A stretch of DNA of 53,636 nucleotides from Saprospiraceae bacterium. GTDB taxonomy: Bacteria; Bacteroidota; Bacteroidia; Chitinophagales; Saprospiraceae. The position numbers and the translations under genes were made by a program. Below the pieces are notes generated by a model. The model did not search any database. It saw only the letters and a program-made list of their open reading frames with translations, and was not told the origin of the DNA. The number at the start of each line of letters is the position of its first letter. Position 1 is the first letter of the stretch. Of this stretch, positions 5,469 to 28,300 are shown one piece after another. The stretch is from the NCBI GenBank assembly GCA_020846655.1, contig JADLDL010000036.1, positions 1 to 53,636 on the forward strand, given 5' to 3'.

Positions 5469-6662
5469 TTATTGAAATACGCGGACGTAGTCCACGATCA
5501 TGCGTTGCGGAAAGTTGGTAGACCCATCCGGGCTGCCGGGCCAGTTGCCACCCACGGCCACATTGAAAATAAAGAAGAAATCCTGGTTGAACGGATATGT
5601 TGCAGGAGCAATGGAAGCGGCGGTGACTTCGTAAAACTGCACATCATCGACCAGCCATTGGATTTTATCCTGCGCCCAAACAATGGAAAACACGTGGAAC
5701 GCGTCGCTGAACTTGGCTGTGCCGGAAAGCGCCGTATTGCTTCCTTTTTGCTGATGCTGTCCGGACGACGGGCCGTAGTGTACCGTGCCGTGCACGCGGT
5801 TGGGCTGATGCCCGACCAGTTCCATGATGTCAATTTCGCCACAGGCGGGCCAACCGGCCGTGCTGATGTTGCCGCCCAGCATCCAAAGTGCCGGCCAGAT
5901 GCCCTGGCCTTCGGGCAGCGCCGCCCGAATATCGATGCGTCCGAATTTGAATTCCTTTTTGCCTTTCGTAATCAGGCGGGACGAGGTGTAGGCTGCCGAC
6001 GAGAAGTTTTCCTTCCGGGCTTCGATGATGAGTTTGCCTTCGGCAAAAAAGGTGTTTTCCGGCCGGTAGTACTGGAGTTCGTTGTTGCCCCAGCCGCCGG
6101 CGCCGGTTTCGAAGGTCCACGCGGCGGGGTCCAGGGTGTTGTTTTCAAATTCGTCGCGCCACACGAGCGTTTTGCCGGCATAGGTTTCGGGGGTGCTGTA
6201 GCCGGTCGCCGGGATGTTGAACGGGTTGTCGGCATCGTCGTTTTGGAGCGTGCCGGTAGCGCGGTCGCGGGCCAGGGTGGCGTTCACGGGGTTGAGCAGC
6301 AAGACCTGAAAGGTTTCGTCGGGCTCTTTCACGTCGTCGGCCGAGATAGGCACGACGATGGTTTTGGCAGTTTCTCCGGCGCTAAACACCAGGGCGCCAT
6401 CGGTTTTGCCGGTAAAGTCCGAGCCCGATTTGGCCGTGCCGTCGAGGGTCGCGTAATTGACCAGCACGTTGGTAGCCGAAGCGGCAGACAGCGTTACGTT
6501 GAAAGAAATAGCCGTTTGGCTTTCCGAAACCGTCGCATCGGTGATCGACAGGGTGGGGGCCGGACTTGGCTCTGGCTCAGGGTCTTTTCCACAAGCAAAA
6601 AGGGCTAGCGAAAGCGTGAGCAGGGCAGCACTATGTTTGGCAAGCATCATGTGTTTTTGCAT
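5469..6662 (-). CDS. Calx-beta/GH16 lipoprotein, probable endo-1,3-beta-glucanase
   Basis: Hydrolyses internal beta-1,3 (or mixed 1,3/1,4) glucan bonds, probably at the cell surface. The 397-residue protein has a lipoprotein signal peptide (LALFAC, Cys24), an acidic/proline linker, a Calx-beta domain (about 37-140) and a GH16 catalytic domain (about 155-397). The catalytic motif GEIDIME is intact with Glu276, Asp278 and Glu281; the GWGNNELQYY and VDYVRVF segments are typical laminarinase signatures. It is the last gene of the glucan locus and starts 1 bp after the stop of the second GH16 gene, indicating translational coupling. Two further in-frame Met codons at residues 5 and 6 could be the true start. 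The exact linkage specificity cannot be read from sequence. Confidence 0.92.
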   Translation of the reverse strand: MQKHMMLAKHSAALLTLSLALFACGKDPEPEPSPAPTLSITDATVSESQTAISFNVTLSAASATNVLVNYATLDGTAKSGSDFTGKTDGALVFSAGETAKTIVVPISADDVKEPDETFQVLLLNPVNATLARDRATGTLQNDDADNPFNIPATGYSTPETYAGKTLVWRDEFENNTLDPAAWTFETGAGGWGNNELQYYRPENTFFAEGKLIIEARKENFSSAAYTSSRLITKGKKEFKFGRIDIRAALPEGQGIWPALWMLGGNISTAGWPACGEIDIMELVGHQPNRVHGTVHYGPSSGQHQQKGSNTALSGTAKFSDAFHVFSIVWAQDKIQWLVDDVQFYEVTAASIAPATYPFNQDFFFIFNVAVGGNWPGSPDGSTNFPQRMIVDYVRVFQ

Positions 6663-6663
6663 T

Positions 6664-7488
6664 TTAAAATGAATAAACCCGTACGTAATCTACTTCCATA
6701 CGTTTGGGCCAGATGGTTTCATCGACGCCTTTCATGCCGCCCCAGTTGCCGCCTACGGCGAAATTCAGGATCACATGAAAACGCTGATCGAAGGGCCATT
6801 CGTTGGCGGATTGCTGTCGGTTCAAAAAACTGTGGTATTTCACATCGTCCACAAAATAATCAATCCGGTCCGGATGCCACTCCACAGCGTACACGTGAAA
6901 TTTGTTTTCCGCATCGGGCAGGTAAAAGCCACGGGTGCTTTGCGTGCGCTTGATGTGGTTGAAGGTCTCGGTATGTGCCGAGCCATACACGGAATCGGGC
7001 ACTACGCCGATGTGCTCCAGGATGTCAATTTCGCCGCTGCGGGGCCAATGGCCGTAGGCCCAGTCGGTGGGCAGCATCCAAAAAGCCGGCCAAGTGCCGC
7101 GGCCGCTGGGGCATTTCAGCCGGGCTTCGATGCGGCCGTAGGTCCAATCGCCCTTGTGCCTGGACACCAGGCGGGCCGAGGTGTAGGCGGAGCCCTGCCA
7201 GGGCTCGCGCCGGGCCTCAATCAGGAGTACGCCGTTTTCGATGCGGGCATTTTCGGCCCGGCGGTTGGTGTAAAATTGGAGCTCGTTGTTGCCCCAGCCA
7301 CACACATCCGGGCAGCCGGTGCCCTGGTCGTAGCCCCACTTGAGGCTATCGGGCAGTCCGGCGGTGTTGAATTCGTCGCTCCACACCAGTTTTCGCTCCG
7401 GCGCGGCAGCCGTCTTTTCCGGCAAGGCACATTTCTGCGCCAGGCCGGAAAGCGAAAAAAAGAAGAGTACTTTTATCACCAACTGCAT
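6664..7488 (-). CDS. Secreted GH16 endo-beta-glucanase, single domain
   Basis: A 274-residue GH16 hydrolase with an N-terminal hydrophobic signal sequence (MQLVIKVLFFFSLSGLAQ) and no accessory domain. The catalytic motif GEIDILE is intact (Glu153, Asp155, Glu158). The ATG at 7488 lies 2 bp after the stop of the upstream lipoprotein gene; an in-frame TTG at 7494 is less likely. Compared with the neighbouring Calx-beta/GH16 protein it lacks a clear lipobox and carries an insertion with two cysteines (GCPDVCGWGNNELQFY), so it may be periplasmic, taking the oligosaccharides that the surface enzyme releases. That division of labour is inference from the locus layout. Family assignment is firm. Confidence 0.92.
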   Translation of the reverse strand: MQLVIKVLFFFSLSGLAQKCALPEKTAAAPERKLVWSDEFNTAGLPDSLKWGYDQGTGCPDVCGWGNNELQFYTNRRAENARIENGVLLIEARREPWQGSAYTSARLVSRHKGDWTYGRIEARLKCPSGRGTWPAFWMLPTDWAYGHWPRSGEIDILEHIGVVPDSVYGSAHTETFNHIKRTQSTRGFYLPDAENKFHVYAVEWHPDRIDYFVDDVKYHSFLNRQQSANEWPFDQRFHVILNFAVGGNWGGMKGVDETIWPKRMEVDYVRVYSF

Positions 7489-7490
7489 AC

Positions 7491-8306
7491 TCAATTTTTT
7501 ACCAGGGTAAATTCAAACCAGCCCGTGCCGTTCAGGATTTTGCTTCGGAGCACGAGCTCGGTGTCGCTCAGTTTGGCGATATCGTACACCGGCCCCGAAT
7601 CCCAGGTGCCGATAAATGCGCCGGTGGGCAGCACAATCTGATCCACACCCATATCGCCGGTACCTTTGGAAACAAACCACGTCAGATCGGTCGGTGGCGT
7701 AAACGGGACGGCAGCGTAACCGTTCCAGGGGTCGATAGTCTGGCCGTTGTTTTCATACTGGAAATGCGAGCCGTCGAAGTAAAAACAAAAGCGATCGTCG
7801 TACTGCGCATCCTGCAAGCCGTTGACCGGCGACTTGTACCACTCCGAAGAGCCTGGCACCGGTCCGACCACGATAGCGTTGGCAGCGCGGGTAAAGGTCC
7901 AGCATTTGCCCGAAGGGCCGCAATCGCCGGTCAGCAAGCCCAGTTGCGGGTCGCATTGCGCAGTGGCATCCTGCTCGATTTTGACAACCTTGGTACTTTG
8001 CGAAACCCCGCCGCCGCCCTGGCCGGCAGCAAACAAGCTGAGGGTATAGTCGCCGGCTTTGGGGTAAAAAATGGTGTCTGTGGCGCGTTTGGATTTGGCA
8101 GGGATGCCGCCGGGAAAATCCCAGGTCCGGTCAAAAAAGCCGCTAGACAGGTCTGTGACCACTACGCGGTTGGGGTCCGAGGCCAGTATTTCCATGGAAA
8201 ACACGGGTGCGGCCGGTTGCCCCGGCAGGTCGATATCATTTTCCTCATACGGCGTGCAGGCCAGGTAGGCCGACAGCACCAGCAGGAACGGAAGTATTTT
8301 TTTCAT
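7491..8306 (-). CDS. PKD-like surface lipoprotein of the glucan locus (candidate glycan-binding protein)
   Basis: A 271-residue lipoprotein: signal peptide with lipobox ending at Cys17 (LSAYLAC), then an acidic stretch typical of surface-exposed lipoproteins (EENDID), a PKD-like immunoglobulin fold (about 33-110, with the TWDFPGG core resembling the PKD WDFGDG motif), and a C-terminal domain rich in aromatic residues. Its place straight after SusD and before two GH16 genes is where surface glycan-binding proteins are usually encoded in such loci. I therefore infer that it binds the beta-glucan and hands it to the SusCD complex. It has no recognisable catalytic motif. The start ATG is 24 bp after the susD-like stop. 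Confidence 0.8.
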   Translation of the reverse strand: MKKILPFLLVLSAYLACTPYEENDIDLPGQPAAPVFSMEILASDPNRVVVTDLSSGFFDRTWDFPGGIPAKSKRATDTIFYPKAGDYTLSLFAAGQGGGGVSQSTKVVKIEQDATAQCDPQLGLLTGDCGPSGKCWTFTRAANAIVVGPVPGSSEWYKSPVNGLQDAQYDDRFCFYFDGSHFQYENNGQTIDPWNGYAAVPFTPPTDLTWFVSKGTGDMGVDQIVLPTGAFIGTWDSGPVYDIAKLSDTELVLRSKILNGTGWFEFTLVKN

Positions 8307-8330: not shown

Positions 8331-9845
8331 TTAATAACCGGGATTTTGGGTGATGGCGCCGTTGGTCGCCTGAATTTGCGATTGCGGGACCGGGAAAACG
8401 CGGTGCGTTGCATCCGAGTACCCCAGCGGGCCCAGCACACTTTGTGCCCGGCCGGTGCGCACCAGGTCGAAAAAGCGGTGCCCTTCGAGCCCCAGTTCGA
8501 GGCGGCGTTCGCGGTAAATGGCTTCCAGCAAGGCCGGCCCGCTGGCGCTGATGTTGGGCAGGATATTGCTGTTGGTGCCGCGGGCCCGGGCGCGCACCTT
8601 GTTGAGGGAGCTACGGGCGGCGGCCTCATTGTTGTTTTGCGCAGCGGCTTCGGCGTGCATCAGCAACACATCGGCAAAACGAATCACCCGGTCGTTGGAA
8701 CCGCCGTTGGGGTTCGGGTCGCCGAAGGGCGCTTCCTCACTTTTGTTGTTGAAATTTTTCTTCGGGTAATACGGCTGCTGGAAGCCGCCCGTGGCATCGA
8801 GTGTGAAAATGCCGCGGTCGCCCATGGCGTCGCCTACCCGGAAAACCGTGCTTTTAAGCCGGGGGTCTTCTACGCCTTCCTTGAAAAATTCTTGCACGAA
8901 ATCTTCGGTGGGCAGGTTGAAACCATAACCTTCAAACTGGCCGCGGGCACGCTGGAAGACGTTGGTAAAGGTGCCTTCGTTGGCGTTGTTTTTGCCCCAG
9001 TTGCCGCCCGAGGCGTTCATGTACTGGATTTCAAACACCGACTCGGCGTTGTTCTCGCCGGCCAGGGTAAAAATGCTGCCGTAGTCGTTCACCAACTGGT
9101 ATTCGTTGGATTGAATAATTTCATCTGCCAGGCTTTCGGCCTCGGCCCAGCGCTGTTGCCAGAGATAACTTTTCACCAGCAAGGCCTGTGCAGCGCCCCG
9201 GGTGATGCGGCCGAGGTCGGCGGCGGCATATCCGCTGCGCAGGGGCAGATCGGGAGCGGCGGCTTTCAGGTCGTTTTCAATGAAGGCCCATACCTGGGAG
9301 GCCTCGGCCCGCGGCAGGTTGTATTCGCTGGGCGCCAACACGCGATCGGCCAGCGGCACGCCGCCAAACATCGTCACCAGGTTGTAATAAAACCAGGCGC
9401 GGATGAAGCGGGCTTCGCCGAGGAGCCGGCTTTTCAGGGCTGCATCCATCTCGATGCCGGGCACTTTTTGGAGCACCACGTTGGCCCGGTAAATGCCTTC
9501 GTAGTCGGCCGCCCATTCGCTTTCCAGGTTGTCGGTGTTGGCCGGGCCGCGGAAGGTTTCGAGTTGGAGCAGTTCATTGGCATCGTTGTCGCCGGAGCCG
9601 CCTTTTGTGGCGTCGTCCGACATGATGTCGCCCCAGATCCAGCGGAAATGCCCGCCGGGCGACAACTCAAATTGCAGGGGGGCATACGCAGCATTCACAG
9701 CGGCAATGGCATCTTCGGCCGTGCGGTAAAAGTTTTCTTCCGTCGTGCCCACCAGTGGTTTGCGCTCCAGAAAGTCTTTTTGGCAGGCGTTTGCGAGTAC
9801 GCCGGTACCAAAGAGTATGAGTAAGCAATATTTTTTCATGTTCAT
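8331..9845 (-). CDS. SusD/RagB-family nutrient-binding outer membrane lipoprotein
   Basis: The lid-like partner of the SusC porin: a surface lipoprotein that captures oligosaccharides. The 504-residue protein has a lipobox at Cys21 (GVLANAC), then the usual start of the SusD fold (QKDFLERKPLVGTTEENFYRT) and TPR-like helices; FADVLLMHAEAA and RERRLELGLEGHRFFDLVR are hallmark C-terminal SusD segments. The open frame runs upstream to 9914, overlapping the SusC gene, but the ATG at 9845 begins the lipoprotein signal, so the real gap to SusC is 38 bp. It is flanked by SusC upstream and the PKD-like lipoprotein downstream. Substrate (beta-1,3-glucan) is inferred from the GH16 neighbours. Confidence 0.95.
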   Translation of the reverse strand: MNMKKYCLLILFGTGVLANACQKDFLERKPLVGTTEENFYRTAEDAIAAVNAAYAPLQFELSPGGHFRWIWGDIMSDDATKGGSGDNDANELLQLETFRGPANTDNLESEWAADYEGIYRANVVLQKVPGIEMDAALKSRLLGEARFIRAWFYYNLVTMFGGVPLADRVLAPSEYNLPRAEASQVWAFIENDLKAAAPDLPLRSGYAAADLGRITRGAAQALLVKSYLWQQRWAEAESLADEIIQSNEYQLVNDYGSIFTLAGENNAESVFEIQYMNASGGNWGKNNANEGTFTNVFQRARGQFEGYGFNLPTEDFVQEFFKEGVEDPRLKSTVFRVGDAMGDRGIFTLDATGGFQQPYYPKKNFNNKSEEAPFGDPNPNGGSNDRVIRFADVLLMHAEAAAQNNNEAAARSSLNKVRARARGTNSNILPNISASGPALLEAIYRERRLELGLEGHRFFDLVRTGRAQSVLGPLGYSDATHRVFPVPQSQIQATNGAITQNPGY

Positions 9846-9883
9846 TGATTTACAATAAATTAGAGCAGACAGCCTGGTTTTTT

Positions 9884-12800
9884 TTAAAAAATCACGTTTA
9901 CACCGCCCAGCCAAACGCGTGCTTGTGGGTAAAAACCGCGGTCGATACCGGCATTTAGCGCACCGCCATAGGCCCCGATTTCGGGGTCCATGCCCGAATA
10001 TTGGGTGAAGGTGAACAGGTTCTGCGCCGAGACGTACAGGCGGAATTTTTCAAATTTAATTTTTTGCAACAAAGATTTGGGGAGGGAATAGCCCAGTTGC
10101 ACGTTTTTGAGCCGGATGTAGGAGCCGTCTTCCACAAAACGGTCGCTTACGCGGGCGTTTTGGTTGGGGTCGAGCAGGTTGACGCGGGGCTCGAAATCGG
10201 AGCTGCCTTCGCCGGTCCAGCGGTTCAGCACCGATACCGGGCGGTTGACGTAACTAAAATCATAGCGCACGGTAGCGTTGTAAATGTCATTGCCCTGGCT
10301 GCCTTGCAGGAAAAGGCCCAGGTCGAAGCCCTTGAATTCCAGGTCCAGTGTAGCGCCGTAGGTAAATTTGGGAGCAGGGTTGCCGATGTACGTTTGGTCC
10401 TCGGCGGTGATCTGGCCGTCGCGGTTCAGGTCTTTGAAACGGATATCGCCCGGCGCCGTGTTTTCATTTTGAAAAGCAGCGGCTTCTACTTCCTGCTGGT
10501 TTTGGAAAATACCATCGGTTACGTAGCCGAAAAACGAACCAATTGGCTGGCCAACTTCTGTTTTGGTCACGTCGGAGTTGCCCGACTGCACCCGGCCGGC
10601 GTACACCGGCTCACCGCCTTCGCCCAGGCTGGTGACTTTGTTTTTCACAAAAGCGATGTTCCCGCCCAGGCTGTACTTGAGGGCCCGGTCGCGGTTGCGG
10701 TAGTTCAGGGCAAGTTCCAAGCCTCGGTTTTCGACACTGGCTACGTTGCGCACGGGTGCCGCCGTACCGGCTGTGAGTGGCACCGGCGCGGCATACAGCA
10801 TGCCGGAGGTGTTTTTTTGGTAGACATCGCCGGTGAAGCCGAGGCGGCCGTTGAAGAGCTCGGCGTCGATACCCAGGTCGGTTTGGGTGATGGTTTCCCA
10901 GCGCAGGTCGGGGTTGGCGGCGGTGAGGGCCACGCTGCCGTTGGTGATTACCTGCCCGGGACCGAAAGTGTAGTTCTGACCGGAGTAGACGACGGTAGTG
11001 AAGTCGTAGTTGCCGAATTTATCGTTGCCGTTTTGTCCCCAGGAGGCGCGGATTTTCAGGAAATTCACCAGGTTGGAGCGCCAGAAATCCTCGTGGCTCA
11101 GGATCCAGCCAGCCGACACGGAGGGAAAATACCCGTAGCGGTTGTTGGCGCCGAAGCGCGAGGAGCCGTCGGCGCGGAAGGCTGCGCTGAACAAATATTT
11201 GTCGGCAAAAGCATAATTGGCTTTGCCAAAAAACGACTGCAAGGCCGATTCTTCGGCGCCACCATAGGCGCTTTGCGAGGCGATGGGGTCGATGGTGTTG
11301 GAAATAAAGGCGTCTTTGGGGTCGTTGGACGGCAGGTTGGTGTTGGCGCCGCCGTTGTACTCGTGGTAGTTTTCGAGCACCGAAGTGCCGGCCACCAGCG
11401 TCAGGTCGTGTTGATCGCCATAGTTGCGGTGCCAGCTCAGCACATTTTCCCACTGCCAGTTTTTCCAGGTGTTGTTGTTGACCACCACCGAGTTGACGAG
11501 CCGTTTCTCGCCACCGGGGGCGTCGCTCAGCACGGGGTCGTTGCTCAGGTCGAAGCGCGGGAAAAAGATGTTTTGGTGCGCAAAGGTCGCGTCGATGCTG
11601 TAGGAAGAGCGGAAGGTAAGGTTGTTCGAGAATTGGAGCTCGGCAAACACATTGCCCACCACGCGGTCCGAATGCCAGCGGTCATGGGTTTGCTCGATGG
11701 CATTGAGCGGGTTGGTGATGTCGGTGTCGGCGTAGCGCGAGTAGGCATAGGTGCCATTGGCTTTGCGGAGCGGCGTGACGGGGTCCATGTTGAGGGCCCG
11801 GACGAGCGGCGTGACGAACTCGTTGTTTTCGGGCAGGCCGTTGCGCGTAAGCGAGGTAAAGCCGAGGTTGGTGCCGAGAGTCAGCCATTTTTTTACTTCC
11901 TGCGTGCCGTTGGCCCGCACGGTGTAACGCCGGAAACCGGATTTTTCGCCGCCTACGATGCCGTTTTGGTCAAATACATTGCCCGACAGCGTATAGGTGC
12001 TTTTTTCGGAACCGCCGGTAAAACTGAGTTGGTGGTTCGACATGGGTGCGTCCTGGAAAATAGCGCCCAACCAGTCGGTGCCTGCACCGAGGGCGTCGGG
12101 GTTGGCAAATTCGGGCAAGGGCGTTTGGCCGGCAGCCACATGTGCCTCGTTGGACAGGATGGCATACTCGCGGGCCGAAAGCAGGTTGGCTGTTTTCCAG
12201 GTGTTTTGCACCCCGAAGTAGGCATCATAGCCGATTTTGCCGACCTGGTTTTTTTTGCCGGTTTTGGTGGTGATGAGCACCACACCGTTGGCGCCCCGGG
12301 CGCCGTAAATGGCTGCCGAAGCAGCGTCTTTCAGCACGTTCAGGCTTTCGATGTCGTTGGGGTTGAGAAAGTCCAGCCCGTCGACGGGCACCCCGTCAAC
12401 GATGTACAGCGGGTCGGAGTTGTTGATCGTGCCGGTACCGCGCACGCGCACGGTGAGGGTGCTGCCCGGCGAGCCGCTGTTCTGCGTCACGGTAACGCCC
12501 GCCGTACGCCCCTGAAGGGCTTGTTCGGTGCGCAGGATAGGCAGTTCAGCAATGTCATCGCTGGTGATGGTCGATACCGAGCCGCTGATGCTGCTTCGTT
12601 TTTGTGAGCCATAGCCCACCACGACCACTTCGTCCAGCACGGCATCGCTTTCCGCCAGGCTGATATTGATCTCGCGTTGTTGGCCAACGGTAACTTCCTG
12701 GGCGGTATAGCCGGTGTAGGAAATTGCCAGCACCGATGTTTCACTCGGTACTGATAGCCGGAACCGGCCATCCAGGTCGGTCATGGCGCCTTGGGTGGTG

Positions 12801-12931
12801 CCTTTTACGGCCACAGTGGCGCCGATAAGTGCCTGCCCGTCGGCAGCGCCCGTGATGCGGCCGCTCAGGCTGATCTGGGCACTGGCGCTCAGGCTGAGCA
12901 GCAGAAAAAGAAATGCGTTAAAAATTCTCAT
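9884..12931 (-). CDS. SusC/RagA-family TonB-linked outer membrane transporter
   Basis: A 1015-residue outer membrane channel importing oligosaccharides under TonB energy. From the N-terminus: signal peptide (to about SASAQ), a carboxypeptidase-regulatory-like domain (about 23-105), the SusC signature DAVLDEVVVVGYGSQKR, the plug (about 115-225, including YIVDGVPVDGLDFLNPNDIE and GARGANGVVLITTK) and a 22-strand barrel ending in a C-terminal aromatic strand (GGVNVIF). No STN domain is present, so it is not itself a FecR-type signal transducer; regulation is more likely by the propeller/LuxR protein encoded upstream. It lies between the T9SS-tailed secreted protein and SusD. A strong hairpin at 12953-12984 sits in its leader. 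Confidence 0.96.
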   Translation of the reverse strand: MRIFNAFLFLLLSLSASAQISLSGRITGAADGQALIGATVAVKGTTQGAMTDLDGRFRLSVPSETSVLAISYTGYTAQEVTVGQQREINISLAESDAVLDEVVVVGYGSQKRSSISGSVSTITSDDIAELPILRTEQALQGRTAGVTVTQNSGSPGSTLTVRVRGTGTINNSDPLYIVDGVPVDGLDFLNPNDIESLNVLKDAASAAIYGARGANGVVLITTKTGKKNQVGKIGYDAYFGVQNTWKTANLLSAREYAILSNEAHVAAGQTPLPEFANPDALGAGTDWLGAIFQDAPMSNHQLSFTGGSEKSTYTLSGNVFDQNGIVGGEKSGFRRYTVRANGTQEVKKWLTLGTNLGFTSLTRNGLPENNEFVTPLVRALNMDPVTPLRKANGTYAYSRYADTDITNPLNAIEQTHDRWHSDRVVGNVFAELQFSNNLTFRSSYSIDATFAHQNIFFPRFDLSNDPVLSDAPGGEKRLVNSVVVNNNTWKNWQWENVLSWHRNYGDQHDLTLVAGTSVLENYHEYNGGANTNLPSNDPKDAFISNTIDPIASQSAYGGAEESALQSFFGKANYAFADKYLFSAAFRADGSSRFGANNRYGYFPSVSAGWILSHEDFWRSNLVNFLKIRASWGQNGNDKFGNYDFTTVVYSGQNYTFGPGQVITNGSVALTAANPDLRWETITQTDLGIDAELFNGRLGFTGDVYQKNTSGMLYAAPVPLTAGTAAPVRNVASVENRGLELALNYRNRDRALKYSLGGNIAFVKNKVTSLGEGGEPVYAGRVQSGNSDVTKTEVGQPIGSFFGYVTDGIFQNQQEVEAAAFQNENTAPGDIRFKDLNRDGQITAEDQTYIGNPAPKFTYGATLDLEFKGFDLGLFLQGSQGNDIYNATVRYDFSYVNRPVSVLNRWTGEGSSDFEPRVNLLDPNQNARVSDRFVEDGSYIRLKNVQLGYSLPKSLLQKIKFEKFRLYVSAQNLFTFTQYSGMDPEIGAYGGALNAGIDRGFYPQARVWLGGVNVIF

Positions 12932-12996: not shown

Positions 12997-15051
12997 TTAA
13001 TTTTGTTTCACAAATCGCGCACTGGCAGCCTTGTCGGTGCTGCTCACCAGCATCACGTACAAACCGGCTTGAAGCCCGCTCACAGACAGTTCGTGCCGAT
13101 CCGTCAGGTCGCTGCGGGTTTCGGTGTACACTATTTTGCCGGCGGCATCAAAAATCCGGATAGATACGGCGCCTTTTACGGCTGTGGCAAAGCCGAGTTG
13201 GAGGGCATCGGTGGTGACGGTGGGTTGCAGCGTCAGCCAGCCGCTGCTGAGCGGCAGGTTGTTGGTGCCGAGGGTACAATCGGTGTTGGTGGCGCAGGAT
13301 GCGAAGCAAGTGTTGATGACAGTATCCTGTTGTACGGCAGAAAGCCAGCGGTCGTTGTAGTTGGTCGGTACGGCACAGGGCTGGCCTTCGATATTTTCCT
13401 TGCAGGAGTAGTCGGGGCAGGCGCCGTTGGCAAAATCGTAGAAGGTGGAGTAGCCGCGTTGGCGTTCGATCTGGATGCTGAATACGCCGTCGCCGTCGGG
13501 GTCGGTCATTTTAAAACGCCCGCCGGGAGGGCCAAAATCGCCGCCGCCAGCCAGGTAAACACCGCCGGGGTCGGGTGTGAGGCCGTTCATGCCGAGGTTG
13601 ACGGCAATTTGCACGGCATCGCCGCAGGCGTAGCAGGAATTGAAACAAACCGGACCGACGGTCGAATTGCCGGAGAGTACCAGTTTTCGGTTGGTAAACA
13701 CGTTGGCGCCATCGACAGTGGTGTTGGTACAGGTAGAGGTGGCGGCCAACTCTTCTTGCTTCGCCCAATTGTCGAGCGTGAATTTGTACTCGTACAAACC
13801 GACGGGGAGTTTCAGGGTGGCTTCATAAATTTTATCACCATCGGCATCGAGCAGTTCGTTGCCATCGCCCGACCAGTTGTTGAAGGAGCCGCTGACGTAG
13901 GCCTTGGTGAAGGTGCCGGCGAACTTGCTCATGTCCAGTTTGAAGCTCACGTCGGCCGTCGGAATGGCGCCGCTGGTGCAGACCTGGATGTCGTCGATGT
14001 AATACACCTGTTCGATACTCGGGCTGGTGCCGAAATCGGCAAACAATACGACCCGCTTGTATACGTGTCCGGCGGCGGGCTTATTGGGCAGTTCGATACT
14101 GGGCAAAGCGGGGTCGAAACTCAGTTCCACCCATTGGTTGACCACGGTGTTGGGCACCGTGACAACCCAATTGTCGCCGCCGTCGGGCGAGTCTTCGAGT
14201 TTGAGGGTGAGGTTGCCCGGGTGGTCGGTGTGAAATTTCACCTTGATTTGGCTACCGGCGCTCAACACTACGTTGGTGACGGGGTTGGGATCGGTATAGG
14301 CGCCGGCCCAGGTTTGGGAGCCGGCGGGTTTTTTAAACTGCAGCACATTGGCGCTGGTATTGATGCCCGAGGGGTTGGGGTTGGCGATGCTGGTAGTGAA
14401 TTGCCCTTCGAGGGTGCTGCCAAAATAACTCAGGGGCGTGCTGGTGGCCTGCGATTCGTAGTCCAGAATGGTGGTGCAGGTAATGACCTGTTCCACTTTG
14501 ATGTTGTCGATATAGTATACCTGAGCGGCAGTCGGGCTGGTACCGAAGTCCGTAAACAAGGTCACGGTGTTGTAAATATGCCCGGCGGCGGGTTTGTTGG
14601 GCAGTTCTATGCTGGGGATTGTGACGTCGAAGGTGAGCACTTCCCACTCGTTGACTTTGGTGTTGGCCACGGTTTGTACCCAGTTGTCGCCGCCATCGGC
14701 CGAGTTTTCCAGTTTCAGAGCGAGGTTGCCGATGTGGTCAAAGTGAACAGCCACGCTGATCTTGGTGCTGGACACCACGTTGACCGGGGTAGAGGGGTTG
14801 GGGTTAGAAAAAGCACCGGCCCAGGTCTGAGCGCCGGCGGGTTTTTTGAATTCCAGCACGTTGGCGCTGGTGTTGGCGCCGCTGGCATTCGGGTTGGCGA
14901 TGACGCTGGTCAACTGGCCTTCGAGCGAGGAGCCAAAGTATTGAAAATTGGTGCTGGTGCCCGCAGCCTCAAAGTCGAGGATGGTTTGGGCGGAAGTGGA
15001 AAAAGCGCCTATACCCAGCAGGATAAAGAGCAGGAGTAGTGATCGAGTCAT
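12997..15051 (-). CDS. Secreted T9SS protein with duplicated beta-sandwich module, first gene of the glucan locus
   Basis: A 684-residue exported protein. After the signal peptide (cleavage near TSAQ) come two tandem modules of about 165 residues (roughly 22-190 and 193-362) that are about two-thirds identical by eye, both starting TILD(F/Y)E and ending YYID(N/D)I(K/Q)V. A third beta-sandwich follows (about 365-470, with VSGSFNNWSGDG, like the carbohydrate-binding E-set/CBM48 fold), then a Cys-rich segment, and finally a T9SS type A sorting domain (about the last 75 residues, ending GLYVMLVSSTDKAASARFVKQN). No catalytic motif is seen. I infer a surface-anchored glycan-binding scaffold for the GH16/SusCD locus. 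It is unusual as the promoter-proximal gene, ahead of SusC. Confidence 0.85.
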   Translation of the reverse strand: MTRSLLLLFILLGIGAFSTSAQTILDFEAAGTSTNFQYFGSSLEGQLTSVIANPNASGANTSANVLEFKKPAGAQTWAGAFSNPNPSTPVNVVSSTKISVAVHFDHIGNLALKLENSADGGDNWVQTVANTKVNEWEVLTFDVTIPSIELPNKPAAGHIYNTVTLFTDFGTSPTAAQVYYIDNIKVEQVITCTTILDYESQATSTPLSYFGSTLEGQFTTSIANPNPSGINTSANVLQFKKPAGSQTWAGAYTDPNPVTNVVLSAGSQIKVKFHTDHPGNLTLKLEDSPDGGDNWVVTVPNTVVNQWVELSFDPALPSIELPNKPAAGHVYKRVVLFADFGTSPSIEQVYYIDDIQVCTSGAIPTADVSFKLDMSKFAGTFTKAYVSGSFNNWSGDGNELLDADGDKIYEATLKLPVGLYEYKFTLDNWAKQEELAATSTCTNTTVDGANVFTNRKLVLSGNSTVGPVCFNSCYACGDAVQIAVNLGMNGLTPDPGGVYLAGGGDFGPPGGRFKMTDPDGDGVFSIQIERQRGYSTFYDFANGACPDYSCKENIEGQPCAVPTNYNDRWLSAVQQDTVINTCFASCATNTDCTLGTNNLPLSSGWLTLQPTVTTDALQLGFATAVKGAVSIRIFDAAGKIVYTETRSDLTDRHELSVSGLQAGLYVMLVSSTDKAASARFVKQN

Positions 15052-15110
15052 ATCGAGCAGTAGATTTTAGAAAATGAAATTTTATTTGGCGAGTTTGATT
15101 GCCAATGCAG

Positions 15111-15118
15111 CAAAGTTG
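15111..15118 (-). promoter_or_regulatory. Candidate -7 element of the glucan-locus promoter
   Basis: On the minus strand this reads CAACTTTG, close to TAnnTTTG, 60 bp before the start of the first gene of the locus. A second TTTG (minus-strand reading of 15121-15124) overlaps just upstream. No TTG/TTTG is found about 19 bp further out, which would fit a promoter that depends on an activator; the phased repeats at 15152-15195 would lie at about -47 to -90. Confidence 0.4.
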
Positions 15119-15151
15119 GGCAAAGGCCTCGGCTTGGGAATCATTTTACGG

Positions 15152-15195
15152 TACAACACCAATACGCAGGGGGTACGACATGACTACGACATGGC
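15152..15195. promoter_or_regulatory. Four direct repeats with exact 11-bp spacing, candidate operator
   Basis: Units start at 15152, 15163, 15174 and 15185: TACAACACCAA, TACGCAGGGGG, TACGACATGAC, TACGACATGGC. The core TAC(A/G)ACA is kept in units 1, 3 and 4 and decays in unit 2. One repeat per helical turn puts all sites on one face of the DNA. They lie in the intergenic region between the glucan locus and its divergent LuxR-HTH regulator, making them the best candidate for that regulator's binding site. Confidence 0.6.
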
Positions 15196-15223
15196 CTTTT
15201 TTGGTAAAAAAAATCCAAAGGCC
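15193..15223. repeat. Imperfect dyad beside the phased repeats
   Basis: GGCCTTTTTTGG (15193-15204) and CCAAAGGCC (15215-15223) can pair with a three-base bulge around an A-rich 10-nt loop. It overlaps the last phased repeat. Function unknown; it could be a second regulatory site or lie in the 5' region of the regulator transcript. Confidence 0.35.
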
Positions 15224-15293
15224 GCTTATTGCTGTTTCCCTGGCTGACACTGTCTGGCAAAACCAGTATTTTCACGACCTTTCGCCGATTATT

Positions 15294-18164
15294 TTGAAAA
15301 AACTACTTTACTTTTTCTGCGTTTTGGCGGGCCATTGTGTAGCCCAAACCGGCAACCTGGGGCTGCCGCCGGTTACAAATTTTCCCAAAACGAGCTACCG
15401 GGCCGGCACACAAAACTGGGACATTGCGCAAGACGCCCAGGGGCGAATGTTGTTTGCCAACAATGAAGGCCTGCTCCTGTTTGACGGTACCCGCTGGCAG
15501 CGTTTCCCGATCGGAAACGGCACCTGCGTGCGCTCCGTGGCCGTGGGCCCCGGTGGAAAAATCTACGTCGGAGGGCAGGGAGAGATCGGTTTCTTCAGTC
15601 CGGATGCCCGGGGCCGGCTGCAGTACCAATCGCTAAACCAGCTGGTGCCGGCAGAAAACCGGCAATTTACCGACGTCTGGGACATTGCGGTGTCGCCGGA
15701 GGGCGCCGTGTGTTTTCGGAGTGCCGAATGGCTCTTGCAATATAAAAATGAAAAAATACGCGCCTTTTCCAGCGGCGGTAACCTTTGGTTCCTGGGCAAA
15801 ACCAGCGGCGGAAAACTACTGATCCAGGATTCGAACAACGGCCTGATGTGGTTTGACGGCGATCATTTTTCGCTCCTCACGCCCGGCGCCAAACCTGCGA
15901 GCCTCGTGACGGCCTTGCTGCCGCTGGGCCCCGACAGCACCTTGGTCACCACCCTGAAAAACGGTATTTTTTTATTGGCCAAGGATCAGTTTTTGCCCTG
16001 GACGACGCCGATTGACCCGTATTTGAAAGAAAAACGAATCTACCACGCGGCCCGTACGCCCGGCGGCGACCTGGCCCTCGGCACCTCGCTCGGTGGCCTG
16101 GTGGTGCTCGGGACCGACCGACGCCCCTTGCAGTGGCTTCAAAAAAGTGAAGGCCTGCTCACGGCCAACGTGCTGTCGGTTTTTTGCGACCGGGCCCGCA
16201 ACCTCTGGCTGGGCTTGGACAACGGCATCTCGGAGGTGGAAATCAACTCGCCGTTTTACCGTATTTTCCCCGACGGCAGCCTCGAGGGTACGGGCTATGC
16301 CGCACGGGTGTTTCAACAAAAATTATACCTGGGTACTTCCAACGGCTTGTTTTACAAACCCTTTGGCGCCTATGCCAACCCTTTTCAACACGAAAATTTT
16401 AACCTCGTACAAGGCACGACGGGGCAGGTTTGGAGTTTGGACGAAGTCGGGGGGCAATTGTTGCCCGGGCACCACGAAGGCCCGCTCCGCGTCGACAAGG
16501 ACCGGGCCAACCCATTGGTCAATATTCCGGGCGCCTGGCGTTTTGTGCCGATCAACGATACCGCCATGGTGGCCGGCCAGTACGATGGGCTTACGTTGTT
16601 CACCCGACCGCCCGGCGGCGCCTGGCAATTCCGGCGGCGCCTGGCGGGTTTGAACGAGTCGTGCCGGGTGATGGTGCGCGAAAAGGACGGCACGCTGTGG
16701 GTCTCGCACCCGTACCGGGGTGTTTTCCGGGTGCGGATCCGGGACAACTTCCGCGACCTGGAGGTGCGCTTGCTGGGCGAGCAGGACGGGCTGCCATCTA
16801 ATTTGAACAACTACGTTTTCGAGATCGACGGCACCATGCTGGTGGCTGCCGAGCGCGGCATTTTTCGTTTCGATGCGCCCAGCGGGCGCTTTGTAGCCCA
16901 TCCGGGTTTCGACGGGCGGATGGGCGGCAGCGGCCGCACCCGTTTTTTGGGCCAGGACCAGCGCGGCAATGTTTGGTTTTGCAAAGGCGAAGACACCGGC
17001 GTGCTCTGGATCGAGGACGGCACCCTGGAGAAAAAAATCAGGCGGCAAGTGTTTCCACAACTGGCCGGCCAACTGGTCGGCGGCTTCGAGCATATTTCGC
17101 CGGTGGATGCGCACAACGTTTTTTTTGGCGCCGAAAAGGGCTTTTTGCACCTCGATCCCGAACGCCTCCGGCAGCTCGATACCAGCCTGAACGTGCTGAT
17201 CAGCAATGTTTTTTTGACCAACAGCGGCGATAGTTTGCTGGCGGCCGGCTATTCGGACATCGAGCAGCTCGGGTTGCCATACCGCCTGAACAGCCTCCGA
17301 TTTGCTTTTTCGGCGCCGGTGTACGGCGCGGCGCGGCGGGTGCAGTACAGCTGCCGGCTCGAAGGCCTGGAGAAAAACTGGTCGGCCTGGAGCGAAAAAA
17401 CCGAGCGGGAATTTCCGCACCTGGGCGCCGGCGACTATGTATTTTGGGTAAAAGCCCGCAATGAATTTGGGGTGGAAAGCGCCGCGCAGCGCTTTGTTTT
17501 CGTTGTGCATCCGCCCTGGTACGCCAGCACCTGGGCCTGGCTGCTCTACGCCGCACTGCTGGCCTTGGGGCTCCGGGCGCTATTTCGGCGGCAAAAACGG
17601 CGTTTTGAAACCGAAAAAGCCAGCCTTACCACCGAGCATCGCCTCCAAACCGAGGCCCAGCAACGCCTGGTGGAACAAACCGAGCAGGAACTGGTGCGGC
17701 TGCAAAATGAAAAACTCGCCTCGGAAGTGGCGCACAAAAACCAGGAACTGGCCCTCGCCACCCTGCACCTGGTGCAAAAAGGCGAAATCCTGAGTAGCAT
17801 CCAGGAAGAGCTCACGCGCGCCCTGGAGAGCAAAAGCGATCCCAAAGCCCTGCGAGCCGACCTGAGCCGGATGGTACGGGCTTTGCAAATGGACGAACAA
17901 ACGGACGCCGATTGGGAACAATTTGCCATTCATTTTGACCAGGTGCACGGCGATTTTTTGAAGCGCCTCCGCGAAAAATACCCCCAACTCACGCCGCACG
18001 ACCACCGCTTGTGCGCCTACCTGCGCATGAACCTGAGTACCAAGGAAATTGCCAATCTGCTCAATATTTCTGTGCGGGGCGTGGAAGGCAGCCGCTACCG
18101 CCTCCGCAAAAAAATGGACCTGCCGGGCGATGCCAACTTGCCGGAAGTGATGTTGCAAGTGTAA
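15294..18164 (+). CDS. Membrane-spanning one-component regulator: beta-propeller, triple-Y, LuxR-type HTH
   Basis: A 956-residue sensor-regulator. After a signal peptide (KKLLYFFCVLAGHCVAQ) comes a long periplasmic beta-propeller (about 20-640, repeated blades such as WDIAQDAQGRMLFANNEGLL), a triple-tyrosine (Y_Y_Y) domain (about 650-740), one transmembrane helix (near 740-765), a coiled coil (about 770-850) and a cytoplasmic helix-turn-helix (about 895-945, NLSTKEIANLLNISVRGVEGSRYRLRKKM). There is no kinase domain, so ligand binding outside must be relayed to the HTH through the membrane. I chose the TTG at 15294 because it places the signal peptide at the N-terminus; the open frame runs upstream to 15099 with an ATG at 15180 that would add a hydrophilic leader. 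It is divergent from the GH16/SusCD locus and probably its activator. Confidence 0.85.
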   Translation: MKKLLYFFCVLAGHCVAQTGNLGLPPVTNFPKTSYRAGTQNWDIAQDAQGRMLFANNEGLLLFDGTRWQRFPIGNGTCVRSVAVGPGGKIYVGGQGEIGFFSPDARGRLQYQSLNQLVPAENRQFTDVWDIAVSPEGAVCFRSAEWLLQYKNEKIRAFSSGGNLWFLGKTSGGKLLIQDSNNGLMWFDGDHFSLLTPGAKPASLVTALLPLGPDSTLVTTLKNGIFLLAKDQFLPWTTPIDPYLKEKRIYHAARTPGGDLALGTSLGGLVVLGTDRRPLQWLQKSEGLLTANVLSVFCDRARNLWLGLDNGISEVEINSPFYRIFPDGSLEGTGYAARVFQQKLYLGTSNGLFYKPFGAYANPFQHENFNLVQGTTGQVWSLDEVGGQLLPGHHEGPLRVDKDRANPLVNIPGAWRFVPINDTAMVAGQYDGLTLFTRPPGGAWQFRRRLAGLNESCRVMVREKDGTLWVSHPYRGVFRVRIRDNFRDLEVRLLGEQDGLPSNLNNYVFEIDGTMLVAAERGIFRFDAPSGRFVAHPGFDGRMGGSGRTRFLGQDQRGNVWFCKGEDTGVLWIEDGTLEKKIRRQVFPQLAGQLVGGFEHISPVDAHNVFFGAEKGFLHLDPERLRQLDTSLNVLISNVFLTNSGDSLLAAGYSDIEQLGLPYRLNSLRFAFSAPVYGAARRVQYSCRLEGLEKNWSAWSEKTEREFPHLGAGDYVFWVKARNEFGVESAAQRFVFVVHPPWYASTWAWLLYAALLALGLRALFRRQKRRFETEKASLTTEHRLQTEAQQRLVEQTEQELVRLQNEKLASEVAHKNQELALATLHLVQKGEILSSIQEELTRALESKSDPKALRADLSRMVRALQMDEQTDADWEQFAIHFDQVHGDFLKRLREKYPQLTPHDHRLCAYLRMNLSTKEIANLLNISVRGVEGSRYRLRKKMDLPGDANLPEVMLQV

Positions 18165-24041: not shown

Positions 24042-24539
24042 ATGACACAAATTGAATTGTTTATCAGAGAGTTAGAGCAAGAGGCCATCACTACCCGCAA
24101 AATGCTTTCGATTGTGCCCGATGACCAATACGACTGGAAGCCCCACCCCAAAAGCATGAGTATCCGCAGTCTGGCCACCCATATTGCGGAACTGCCAACT
24201 TGGGTGAGCCTCGCGTTCACGTCTGACGGACTCGACTTTGCAACCACGCCCTACGCACCGGTGCTCCTCCACAACACAGCCGAATTGCTGGCCTATTTTG
24301 AACAATGCCTGGCCGACGGCCGCACCCAACTCACCGAAGCCAATGCGCCTTTTCTGGATAAAACCTGGATCTTGCGCCACGGCGAAACGATTTTAAGCGA
24401 TTCCTCCAAACGGGATGTGGTCCGCATGACCTTTAGCCAAATCATACACCACCGGGCCCAGTTGGGTGTTTTTCTGCGCCTGCTGAACGTGCCGATCCCC
24501 GGCAGTTACGGCCCCAGCGCTGACGAACTGGGAAAATAA
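24042..24539 (+). CDS. DinB-like protein (second)
   Basis: A 165-residue DinB/YfiT-superfamily protein: MTQIELFIRELEQEAITTRKML as helix 1, PKSMSIRSLATHIAELPTWV with the first His, and IIHHRAQLGVFLRLLNVPIPG with the later His ligands and the typical V-P-x-x-Y/P-G-S-Y-G-P-S end. Putative metal-dependent, possibly thiol-dependent enzyme; substrate unknown. A symmetric operator-like dyad lies in its promoter, suggesting regulation, perhaps by a locally encoded regulator. A hairpin terminator separates it from the third DinB-like gene. Confidence 0.85.
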   Translation: MTQIELFIRELEQEAITTRKMLSIVPDDQYDWKPHPKSMSIRSLATHIAELPTWVSLAFTSDGLDFATTPYAPVLLHNTAELLAYFEQCLADGRTQLTEANAPFLDKTWILRHGETILSDSSKRDVVRMTFSQIIHHRAQLGVFLRLLNVPIPGSYGPSADELGK

Positions 24540-24550
24540 GGTTCAAGTAA

Positions 24551-24604
24551 GCAGCGCCCTGCACCTGCCCGAAACAGCGGGTAGGCGCAGGGGCTGTCAT
24601 TTTT
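24551..24604 (+). terminator. Imperfect hairpin with T-run between two DinB-like genes
   Basis: GC-rich arms (24552-24571 and 24577-24597) pair imperfectly through GCCCTGC, CCT and CCCG against CGGG, AGG and GCAGGGGC, followed by CATTTTTA. A probable intrinsic terminator of the upstream gene. Confidence 0.6.
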
Positions 24605-24621
24605 AGTAAAAAAATTCAGCT

Positions 24622-25089
24622 ATGAAAACCTATTTGTTCGACACCTTTCGGTTCAACGACCAGGCCAACCGGCAAATGCTGGCTAAAATCAAAACCCTGC
24701 CGGAACCGGAGGCCTGTGTGCGGTATTTCAGCCACCTGATCAATTCACAAAACAAATGGCTGGCCCGCATCGAACAACGTCCTGGCTATGCCGATATGAG
24801 TTGGTGGGAACCTGTCTATGCCTTAGCCGATTTGGAAGCGGAATGGGCGGCCAGCCTCGACGCCTGGCTGCATTTTCTGGACCCCTTGCCAGCCACGGCG
24901 CTCGACGCCTATGTGCCGTTTACGGGCTACGACGGGGCGGTTTGGGAAGCCCGGATCGTCGATATTGCCTTGCAACTCAACTACCACTCGATCCACCACC
25001 GGGCGCAAATGCAGCCCTTCATCCGCGCACAAGGCCTGGAACCCGATTTTATCGACTACATCGGCACCCGATACCGGCGGGTCGGCTGA
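24622..25089 (+). CDS. DinB-like protein (third)
   Basis: A 155-residue DinB/YfiT-superfamily protein with a different subfamily pattern: FNDQANRQMLAKI in helix 1, RYFSHLINSQNKWLARI with the first His, and LQLNYHSIHHRAQMQPFIR with the other ligands, then GLEPDFIDYI. These are the features of DinB-related proteins whose C-terminal end is acidic and aromatic. It starts 82 bp after the second DinB-like gene, but a hairpin lies between them and they share little sequence beyond the superfamily pattern, so recent tandem duplication is unlikely. No activity can be assigned. Confidence 0.82.
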   Translation: MKTYLFDTFRFNDQANRQMLAKIKTLPEPEACVRYFSHLINSQNKWLARIEQRPGYADMSWWEPVYALADLEAEWAASLDAWLHFLDPLPATALDAYVPFTGYDGAVWEARIVDIALQLNYHSIHHRAQMQPFIRAQGLEPDFIDYIGTRYRRVG

Positions 25090-25330: not shown

Positions 25331-28300
25331 ATGTCGAAAAATGCTTTCCTGACCATACTCCGGTTCTGCTGCCTGCTGGGTGCCGGTCATTTGGCAGCGC
25401 AGCAGCCCGACATGGTGTTTCACAACCTGACCGAAAAAGAAGGCCTGAGTTATAACATCGTCAATGCTTTTCTCAAAGACCGCGATGGTTTCCTCTGGGT
25501 AGGCACGTACAGCGGCCTCAACCGCTTCGACGGCGCGCACTTTTTTGTGTTTAAACAAAACAACGACAGCACATCACTGGTGCACAACTCCGTACATGCC
25601 CTCTGCGAAGACCAGTCCGGCAATATCTGGGGGGGCACCGACGAGGGTATTTTCTGCTACCTGAAAAAGCAAAACCGCTTCATTCCGTATAAAAAAACGG
25701 CACAGGGCAAAATTGCCGGTGCACACAGCATCCTCTGCGACCGCAACGGCACCGTGTGGGCCAGCGGCCTCCCGGGCCTGCTGCGTTTCGATCCGGCTAA
25801 AAACACCTTCGAGGTATTGCACCATGTGCCTTCAGACTCGTTTTCAATTTCCAATAACCGCATCCATAAAAACGGGCTGCTCGAAGACCCGGCAGGGCGC
25901 GGCATCTGGATTGCCACCCAAGCGGGCCTTAATTTTTATGACCGGCAATCCCGGCGGTTTTATAATGCCCGCAACCAGACCGGAAACCCACTCTACAGCG
26001 CCAGCCCCCTGAGTGCCCTGGCCCCTTCGAGCGAGGGACACTTCTGGGCCATGGAAAATACGAGCAAAAGCATTCTCCGTATCGATGCCCGCCAGCAACG
26101 GATCGTACAGACCGTTCCCACGGCGCAGTTAGCCCCCAATGCCTATGGCGCCACCTTGTTTGAAGACAGCCGACATAGGCTATGGCTTTCGTCCTGGTCC
26201 TACGAAATCCTGGCGATCGACTACCAGCAGGGCAACCGGATACAAAAAATCAAACACAGCGATACGGATGAGTCGTCTATTGCCGGCGACTTTTTCTGGG
26301 CGGCCCGTGAAGACGAAGAAGGCACGATCTGGCTCGGTACGGTAGGCGGTATTTCGACCTACAACCCCGCGCATTCATTTTACAAAGTGCATCGCCTGGC
26401 TGAAAAAATCCCGGAGCTCCGCGCCAATTTTGCGATACGGGGCCTGATCGAAAACCCGCGAGACCATTCCTGGTGGATCATTGTGGTGAACAACAGAGTG
26501 TTGCATTATTTCCCACAGTCCGAAGAATATGAGCTGTTGGACCTGAAAACTGCCCGACCCAACGCCCGGGGCGAACGGCCTGCGCCATTGGTCAGTATCC
26601 AGTTTTTAGGCGACAAAACCTTGTTCAATACGGCTGCGGGCAGCTGGCAATGGTCGGCCAAAGAACCACAAATCAAAGCTTTTACCGGCTTGCCGGCCCC
26701 CTGGCAAGATTTTCGGATTCGGGCTTTGGGCTATGAAACTGATTCGATCTGCTGGCTGAATGGCCAAACGCAGGTGTTGCGTTGGAACCTCAATACACAG
26801 GCTATTGAATCCTTTGCTATGGGCAACGATACCGCCGGCATGGTATACCCCACCAACCTGTGGGGCCTGGTGGCCAAACCCGGCTTGGATGTTTGGATGC
26901 ATTCGATGCCCTATGCTATCGTCCGGGTTGATCGCCGGAACAAGCGCCTGGAACGGGTGCTGCTTGACAACCACGGCCGGACGAAAATGCTGGGTGGCTT
27001 TTCCGATATCGACGTTGACGCCCGAGGCCGCGTCTGGATGGCTTGCAAAGGCCAGGGCCTATACAGTTACGACCCCGGGCGCGACAGCACCACGGTTTGG
27101 CGCGAATCCGATGGCCTCGTGTTCGACCACATCATGGCCACTACGGTGGATCCACTGGGCCAGCTTTGGACGGCTGGCTACAACAAGATTGCGGTGTTTA
27201 ACCCCAAAACACAGAATTTTTACAATTTCACCCTGCCACTCAGCACGAGCAATTACGGGTACGTCAACTATTCCACCCTGCTGCACAGCGGCCATGTGAC
27301 CACCACGATTATGGGCGACGTAGTGGAGTTTTTTCCGGATAAAATCGCCACACCGCCCCTGACCCGGCAGCCGGTCATCAGCCTGTTGCGTATTTCCGGG
27401 CAAGACAAAATCCTGAACGGCGAAACCAGTGTCTTGCTGGAACCCGATGAAAATTTTATCACGATAAAGTTTGGCATGCTGACCGACCAGCAGGCTTTTC
27501 CCTGCGAATTTGACTACCGCCTGGACGGCGTCAACGACCAGTGGGTGTCGGCCGGCAATTCTACCGAAGCCGTGTACACCGACCTGGAGCCCGGCACTTA
27601 CGCCTTTCACCTGATCGCCAAATCGAAAAATAAATCCTGGACCACCCCTGAAAAAACGCTGACCATCGTGATCCGGGCGCCATTTTACAAAACCTGGTGG
27701 TTCCGCCTGCTGGCCTTGTCGAGCCTTGCTTTCGGCCTGTATGCCCTGTACCGGTACCGGTTCACGCAAAAAGAGCGGATGATGCAGTTGGAAAGTAAGG
27801 CCCAAGCCCTGGAAAAAGAAAAAGCCCTGGTGATGTACGAGCACCTCAAACAACACCTCAACCCGCATTTTCTGTTCAACTCGCTCACCTCGCTCGGCAG
27901 CCTGATCCGGATCGACCAGGCACAGGCCGGCGATTTTCTGGACAAAATGAGCAAGGTGTACCGCTACATCCTCAAAAACCGCGACAATGAGGCAGTGCCA
28001 CTCGGCGAGGAATTGAAATTTGTAAAACTTTACATCGGCCTCCAGCAAACGCGGTTCGAGCAAGGACTGGTGGTCAATATTTCAATCGATGATGAGTATT
28101 TCCACCGGAAGGTAGCGCCCGTGACGCTGCAAAACCTGGTGGAAAATGCCATCAAACACAACATTGCCGATGTGGACACGCCGCTGGTGATCGATCTTTT
28201 TATCGAAGACGACTACCTGACCGTGCGCAACAATTTGCACCGCAAAAACTTTGTCGAAACCAGCAACAAACAGGGCCTGGCCAACATGGCCTCCCTGTAC

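Follow-up and report, generated by a model that had tools for sequence, protein, structure and literature searches.

Four direct repeats spaced at 11 bp in the DNA of a Saprospiraceae bacterium very probably form an activator-type operator of the divergent CBM/SusC/SusD/GH16 operon, read by the neighboring, putatively membrane-anchored regulator. The operator is predicted to comprise direct half-sites of 11 bp in two pairs. The sequence itself shows the array, its conservation, how far it lies from the -7-like box, which strand it occupies, and that it goes with SusC operons; the binding protein, the number of its subunits, the inducer, and activation as such are what we infer. The interpretation given in a sequence-only reading of the window, i.e., of the whole 53,636-nucleotide stretch of DNA that was analyzed, proves essentially right, and binding by the helix-turn-helix (HTH) domain stands as its prediction.

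The Array and Its Flanking Genes

The features of the locus are as follows, with protein domains assigned by Pfam where indicated.

15152–15158, plus strand: half-site A, TACAACA, the repeat nearest the promoter of the divergent operon; its position is conserved in relatives
15163–15169, plus strand: half-site B, TACGCAG, a weak copy
15174–15180, plus strand: half-site C, TACGACA
15185–15191, plus strand: half-site D, TACGACA
15111–15118, minus strand: candidate -7 box of the divergent operon, CAACTTTG, matching TAnnTTTG in 5 of 6 positions and starting 33 bp from half-site A
12997–15051, minus strand: first operon gene, with Por_Secre_tail (T9SS sorting), AMPK1_CBM, and a sub-cut-off CBM65_1 match (Pfam)
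9884–12931, minus strand: SusC-like TonB-dependent transporter (Pfam)
8331–9914, minus strand: SusD-like protein (Pfam); open reading frame from a TTG, true start probably further in
7491–8306, minus strand: protein with a sub-cut-off PKD match (Pfam)
6664–7494, minus strand: GH16 protein (Pfam)
5469–6662, minus strand: GH16 protein with a Calx-beta domain (Pfam)
15294–18164, plus strand: regulator with Reg_prop and Y_Y_Y (Pfam) and a C-terminal HTH; presumed start at TTG 15294
17517–17585, plus strand: hydrophobic stretch, taken by eye as a transmembrane segment
18036–18116, plus strand: helix-turn-helix, STKEIANLL-NIS-VRGVEGSRYRLRKKM

The four heptamers noticed in the sequence-only reading were confirmed at start positions exactly 11 bp apart (15152, 15163, 15174, and 15185). 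TAC is common to all four, and the array comprises two strong copies (C and D) and two weak ones (A and B): the 11-mers C and D are identical in 10 of 11 bases, and the remaining five pairs of copies agree in 3 to 7 of 11. A series of four TACs at constant spacing occurs once in the window (spacings 4–20, both strands), and that occurrence is the array. The pattern TACNN[CT]A-N4-TACNN[CT]A likewise has its single match there, and no pair of TACNN[CT]A elements was found in the window at other start spacings from 7 to 18.

On the minus strand, Pfam recovered domains of the T9SS/SusCD/GH16 operon named in the sequence-only reading. The reading frame of the regulator is open upstream through the array (open reading frame from TTG 15099, with an in-frame ATG at 15180). 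Despite this, the array is taken as intergenic because a hydrophobic, signal-peptide-like stretch, judged by eye, begins at TTG 15294, and the divergent intergenic placement suggested earlier was accepted with the start of the regulator put at this codon. The sequence TAnnTTTG is the known -7 element of Bacteroidetes, and attempts to identify a -33 element failed in Flavobacterium johnsoniae (PMC7366714). The missing -33 box of the window, which had been remarked upon in the sequence-only reading, is thus weak evidence.

Conservation of the Array and Its Linkage to SusC Operons

When a fourfold pattern modeled on the array sequence was sought in the 6.4-Mb assembly, this array was the single match, which is little proof on its own; it is the relatives that give the array its weight. 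Homologs of the regulator were found in 37 of 60 genomes, own genome included (E up to 1e-50), and 29 of the 60 have a homolog of the gene that opens the operon (E up to 1e-20). Twenty-eight regulator loci (L002–L028 and L062) were examined, and 23 were kept after the near-duplicates L004, L008, L013, and L019 and the incomplete L028 had been left out. The 300-bp upstream regions of these 23 contain 46 TAC–TAC pairs at 11 bp vs. 2.4 expected from shuffles, with further distance peaks at 22 (31 pairs), 33 (35 pairs), and 44 bp (19 pairs), although the relatives are often closely related, so that the counts are not independent. In an unprompted scan of 60 trinucleotides at 44 lags, TAC at 11 bp ranked first in the 23 relatives; it also ranked first in 45 regions from named Bacteroidota (29 vs. 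3.6 in shuffles). The same scan of eight close paralogs placed TAC at 33 bp first and TAC at 11 bp second.

Orthologous regions that keep the genes and lose the repeats, the case that the sequence-only reading had named against itself, were examined; a TAC pair at 11 bp is present in 22 of the 23 relatives, the exception being L012, and the reading was not refuted. Hand assignment of four sites per relative gave spacings of 11-22-11 in 14 cases and of 11-21-11 in 5; the other 4, namely the window, L003, L062, and L006, have 11-11-11. The fourfold 11-bp spacing is the form of the closest relatives; in the window both pairs adjoin, without the spare turn that is found in most of the others. The 11-bp pair of the earlier four-site description is conserved; the uninterrupted series is the form of those 4 of 23. 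Arrays contain four TACs in 15 relatives, three in 6, and two in 2.

The gene divergent from the regulator is a homolog of the first operon gene of the window in 13 of the 23 relatives and SusC itself in L009; L027 gave a weak match (E about 1e-5), and the sequence of L016 ends too soon. In 7 of the 23 (L017, L018, and L022–L026) the divergent gene has no match to the first operon gene of the window. Its frame begins lipoprotein-like with PKD-like repeats, judged by eye, and these seven probably represent a sister locus.

Thirty-eight further regions comprised 22 distant controls, 8 close paralogs, and 8 that were left out of the counts (the near-duplicates L157, L169, and L172, the incomplete L178, and L179–L182). 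All eight close paralogous regulators have TAC pairs, and six of them (L151, L171, L174, L175, L176, and L177) have two pairs with a start-to-start distance of exactly 33 bp. L151 represents another, closely related regulator of the family encoded by the own genome, at the end of contig C257 of G000, with an array of its own, TACGGCATTACTACTGCA. The distant paralogous regulators had TAC at 11 bp upstream in none of 22 cases, a control of limited weight, since the array goes with the target operon and these regulators were scored without their targets. No TAC at 11 bp was present in L179–L182, more distant homologs of 30–31% identity; their upstream regions carry copies of CATCA 12 bp apart, with a third copy in L182, and these are perhaps another type of operator.

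The distance to the promoter is conserved along with the repeats. A TAnnTTTG-like box, perfect in 9 cases, starts 32–33 bp from half-site A in the direction of the divergent gene in 22 of the 23 relatives (shuffles, mean 0.78 and maximum 4), the fixed distance upstream of -7 that is looked for in activator operators, and it is less uniform in the named loci described below. The box of L011 matches in 4 of 6 positions only. Site registers were shifted after the first look in L007, L008, and L010 (by 3 bp) and twice in L015 (9–12 bp); without L007, L010, and L015 the fixed distance is found in 19 of 20, L008 being outside the 23. On the regulator side, no comparable fixed offset from array to box was found in the 23 relatives. 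By eye, a TTG lies 19 bp ahead of the -7 box in L007, L008, and L010. An A-rich block resembling TAAAAT, also judged by eye, directly follows half-site A in many relatives (15140–15151 in the window).

Fifty-two loci came from named Bacteroidota, of which 46 were read and 45 counted in the word-by-lag scan. A SusC match was present in 25, and 23 were usable after omission of L077 and L092, in which the match lies away from the regulator; 10 of these SusC operons are divergent from the regulator and 13 lie downstream of it in the same direction. A GTA pair at 11 bp in the direction of the operon precedes 20 of the 23 (8 of 10 divergent and 12 of 13 downstream; shuffles, mean 2.24 and maximum 7), the exceptions being L078, L090, and L107, and the corresponding TAC pair on the opposite strand precedes 0 of 23. 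With SusC downstream, TAC at 11 bp stands before the regulator itself in 1 of 13 loci and the array before SusC in 12 of 13. The array accompanies the SusC operon, also in loci where that operon comes after the regulator. After thinning by hand, in which five Parapedobacter and three near-identical Pedobacter loci were reduced to one each, the array was retained in 14 of 17 operons.

For the 20 array-bearing named operons, the distance from the proximal site to the best -7 box after it is 32 bp in 4 and 35–36 bp in 11; in the other 5 (L071, L072, L074, L084, and L087) the box is elsewhere or weak. In front of SusC, five Parapedobacter and three Pedobacter loci (L067–L070, L085, L076, L095, and L106) carry two GTA pairs of the 11-bp type separated by 53–54 bp, and the -7 box follows the second pair at 35–36 bp. 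GTA pairs at a lag of 6 are also common (17 of 23 named operons), because the common form GTAGGGGTATTGTA contains one. In L063 (8176–8235) and L073 (6403–6420), an extra TACATCA array lies ahead of a gene encoding a xylose-isomerase-like TIM barrel (AP_endonuc_2), again on the strand opposite to that gene, which is possibly a second target of the regulator.

Allowing up to one mismatch, TACGACA-N4-TACGACA has 23 matches in 36 genomes, own genome included, vs. 69 for the backwards pattern, so that such pairs are not enriched genome-wide. Five matches in the 36 genomes are exact, and four of these five lie beside a regulator of the present family. A looser pair, sought across the whole named loci, was found 26 times at spacing 11, 3 to 15 times at spacings 7–18, and 15 times in the reversed control, which means that the signal of the array lies in its position and not in overall number. 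Within the own genome, 9 matches to TACNNCA-N4-TACNNCA compare with 1 for the reversed control.

The Neighboring Regulator and Competing Explanations

The sensor domains of the regulator, Reg_prop and Y_Y_Y, are those of the propeller/triple-Y one-component PUL regulators, and the beta-propeller and triple-Y sensor named in the sequence-only reading was recovered by Pfam, which found no kinase, receiver, or AraC-type domain in the protein. Its signal-like stretch and its hydrophobic stretch were both judged by eye. The LuxR-type HTH fared less simply: GerE matched under its curated Pfam cut-off (19.2 vs. 23.5 bits), and support for this assignment came from a model of the last 89 residues (pLDDT 93.9, pTM 0.84), in which the C-terminal domain has a four-helix fold of the NarL type. 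Foldseek matched this domain 422 times with E of at most 10; the best E was 0.025 (probability 1.00), and no match fell under 0.001. The best 50 of the 422 are response-regulator and LuxR-type domains, e.g., StyR, FixJ, EL222, NarL, RcsB, and LiaR, and the NarL match 1je8 superimposes at 1.5 Å over 60 columns. The C-terminus is thus modeled as a NarL/LuxR-type fold of the DNA-binding type. A 195-residue model places a long helix ahead of it (pTM 0.44), which would suit a coiled coil.

The class of half-site and the recognition helix tend to covary. VEGS or VEAS occurs with TACGACA, mostly VEIS with TACATCA, and VEVS or VEIA-like helices with TACAATA; exceptions are L017, L018, and L022, in which VEAS accompanies mixed half-sites, and L079 and L092, which deviate. 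Both features track the tree, so that their covariation is little independent proof of which protein binds. Elsewhere in the window, a propeller/triple-Y histidine kinase (25331–29142; Reg_prop, Y_Y_Y, and His_kinase), followed directly by a LytTR response regulator, has the sensor type of the regulator with a different output module, and two DinB-family genes lie in succession at 24042–25089.

The array tracks the operon and not the regulator gene, so that its linkage to the regulator is indirect, and an unlinked transcription factor might read it as the operator of the SusC operon. Such a factor is unlikely in view of 18 other SusC genes from four related genomes, which have a GTA pair at 11 bp in 4 cases and TGNNGTA in both copies in none, although some of these control genes may not be first in their operons and, for at least two, a distant paralog of the regulator is encoded on the same contig. 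It also fits poorly with the own genome, in which two of the nine TACNNCA pairs lie beside members of the regulator family (contigs C36 and C257). Autoregulation, in which the array would mainly control the gene of the regulator itself, could draw on the location of the array upstream of the regulator in the window and on candidate -7 boxes on the regulator side in many relatives; it becomes very improbable given that no fixed distance is kept toward the regulator and that, with SusC downstream, the pair precedes 1 of 13 regulators against 12 of 13 SusC genes.

There is hardly any probability left for a chance repeat, a coding repeat, or an RNA element with no operator role. The open regulator frame, the weakness of two of the four copies, and the lack of genome-wide enrichment of TACGACA pairs would be in keeping with such an origin, yet conservation of both TAC at 11 bp and the -7 distance far exceeds that of shuffles, a period of 11 bp is not divisible by 3, and 14900–15450 has no Rfam match up to E=1, so that these possibilities are strongly disfavored. 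The autoregulatory, RNA, and coding readings were set aside on the missing regulator-side offset, the linkage of the array to SusC, and the missing Rfam match.

For an operator of the divergent operon read by the neighboring regulator, the following mechanism can be proposed. Binding of a glucan fragment in the periplasm would trigger the regulator; the inducer is taken to be a beta-glucan fragment because the operon contains two GH16 enzymes. The NarL/LuxR-type domains, joined via a cytoplasmic coiled coil, would then occupy the two pairs of 11-bp direct half-sites, with the TACGACA elements (TGTCGTA in the direction of the operon) facing one side of the DNA. About 33 bp separate the end of the promoter-proximal site from the -7 box downstream of it, a distance at which RNA polymerase would come within reach of the activator. 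Most likely, two dimers would bind, each head to tail on one 11-bp pair. Binding to direct repeats would require the symmetry of the dimer to be broken; in AraC proteins, independent domains on flexible linkers permit such binding (PMC9723621). If this mechanism holds, the array would offer a compact set for mutation, by which the use of direct repeats, not a dyad, by a membrane-bound protein with a NarL-type domain may be studied.

Known Operators and Wider Meaning

The regulator resembles NarL/FixJ/LuxR-type (GerE) proteins in the modeled fold of its last 89 residues and in its sub-cut-off GerE match. Operators of the NarL type are typically dyads, whereas the half-sites of the present array run head to tail. 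The maltose system of E. coli offers another comparison: MalT is a sugar-sensing activator with a LuxR-type domain that uses repeated asymmetric boxes near the promoter. It is, however, a cytoplasmic protein of STAND architecture, and its boxes differ from those of the present regulator in sequence and spacing.

The nearest published prediction is that of the SusR-like operators of Bacteroides, in which two direct-repeat sites are separated by 67 or 77 bp (Ravcheev et al., 2013, PMC3878776). As in the present array, the repeats lie ahead of SusC/SusD operons on a single face of the DNA, and they are assigned to a one-component PUL activator, membrane-bound there and putatively so here. The arrangement differs, the present array having 11-bp half-sites in two pairs; spacings of 67 or 77 bp were not found, the spacings being 11, 21, and 22 bp in the 23 relatives and 53–54 bp between pairs in eight named loci. 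AraC-type hybrid two-component PUL regulators (PMC3878776) are similar in their propeller-type periplasmic sensor, control of SusC/SusD, and direct-repeat motifs. They combine a kinase and a receiver with an AraC-type domain; Pfam found none of these in the present regulator. The accessible text of PMC6874557 covers SusR-like induction and gives no sites. No report of 11-bp operators for the present regulator family was found in the open-access literature, subscription papers being largely outside this scope.

A broader generalization is put forward tentatively, at somewhat less than an even chance: a phylum-wide class of operators in which membrane-tethered propeller/triple-Y regulators would act on paired 11-bp head-to-tail half-sites that keep a constant phase to the -7 box and fall into TACGACA, TACATCA, and TACAATA types, with residue x of the recognition helix VExSRYRL helping to set the half-site. 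It is put no higher because the named loci have two -7 distances and five exceptions. If such a class exists, a simple sequence rule would connect the sugar sensors of this family with the operons under their control across Bacteroidota, the target operons of many uncharacterized polysaccharide loci would become predictable from sequence, and the sensor to which each polysaccharide locus answers could be predicted.
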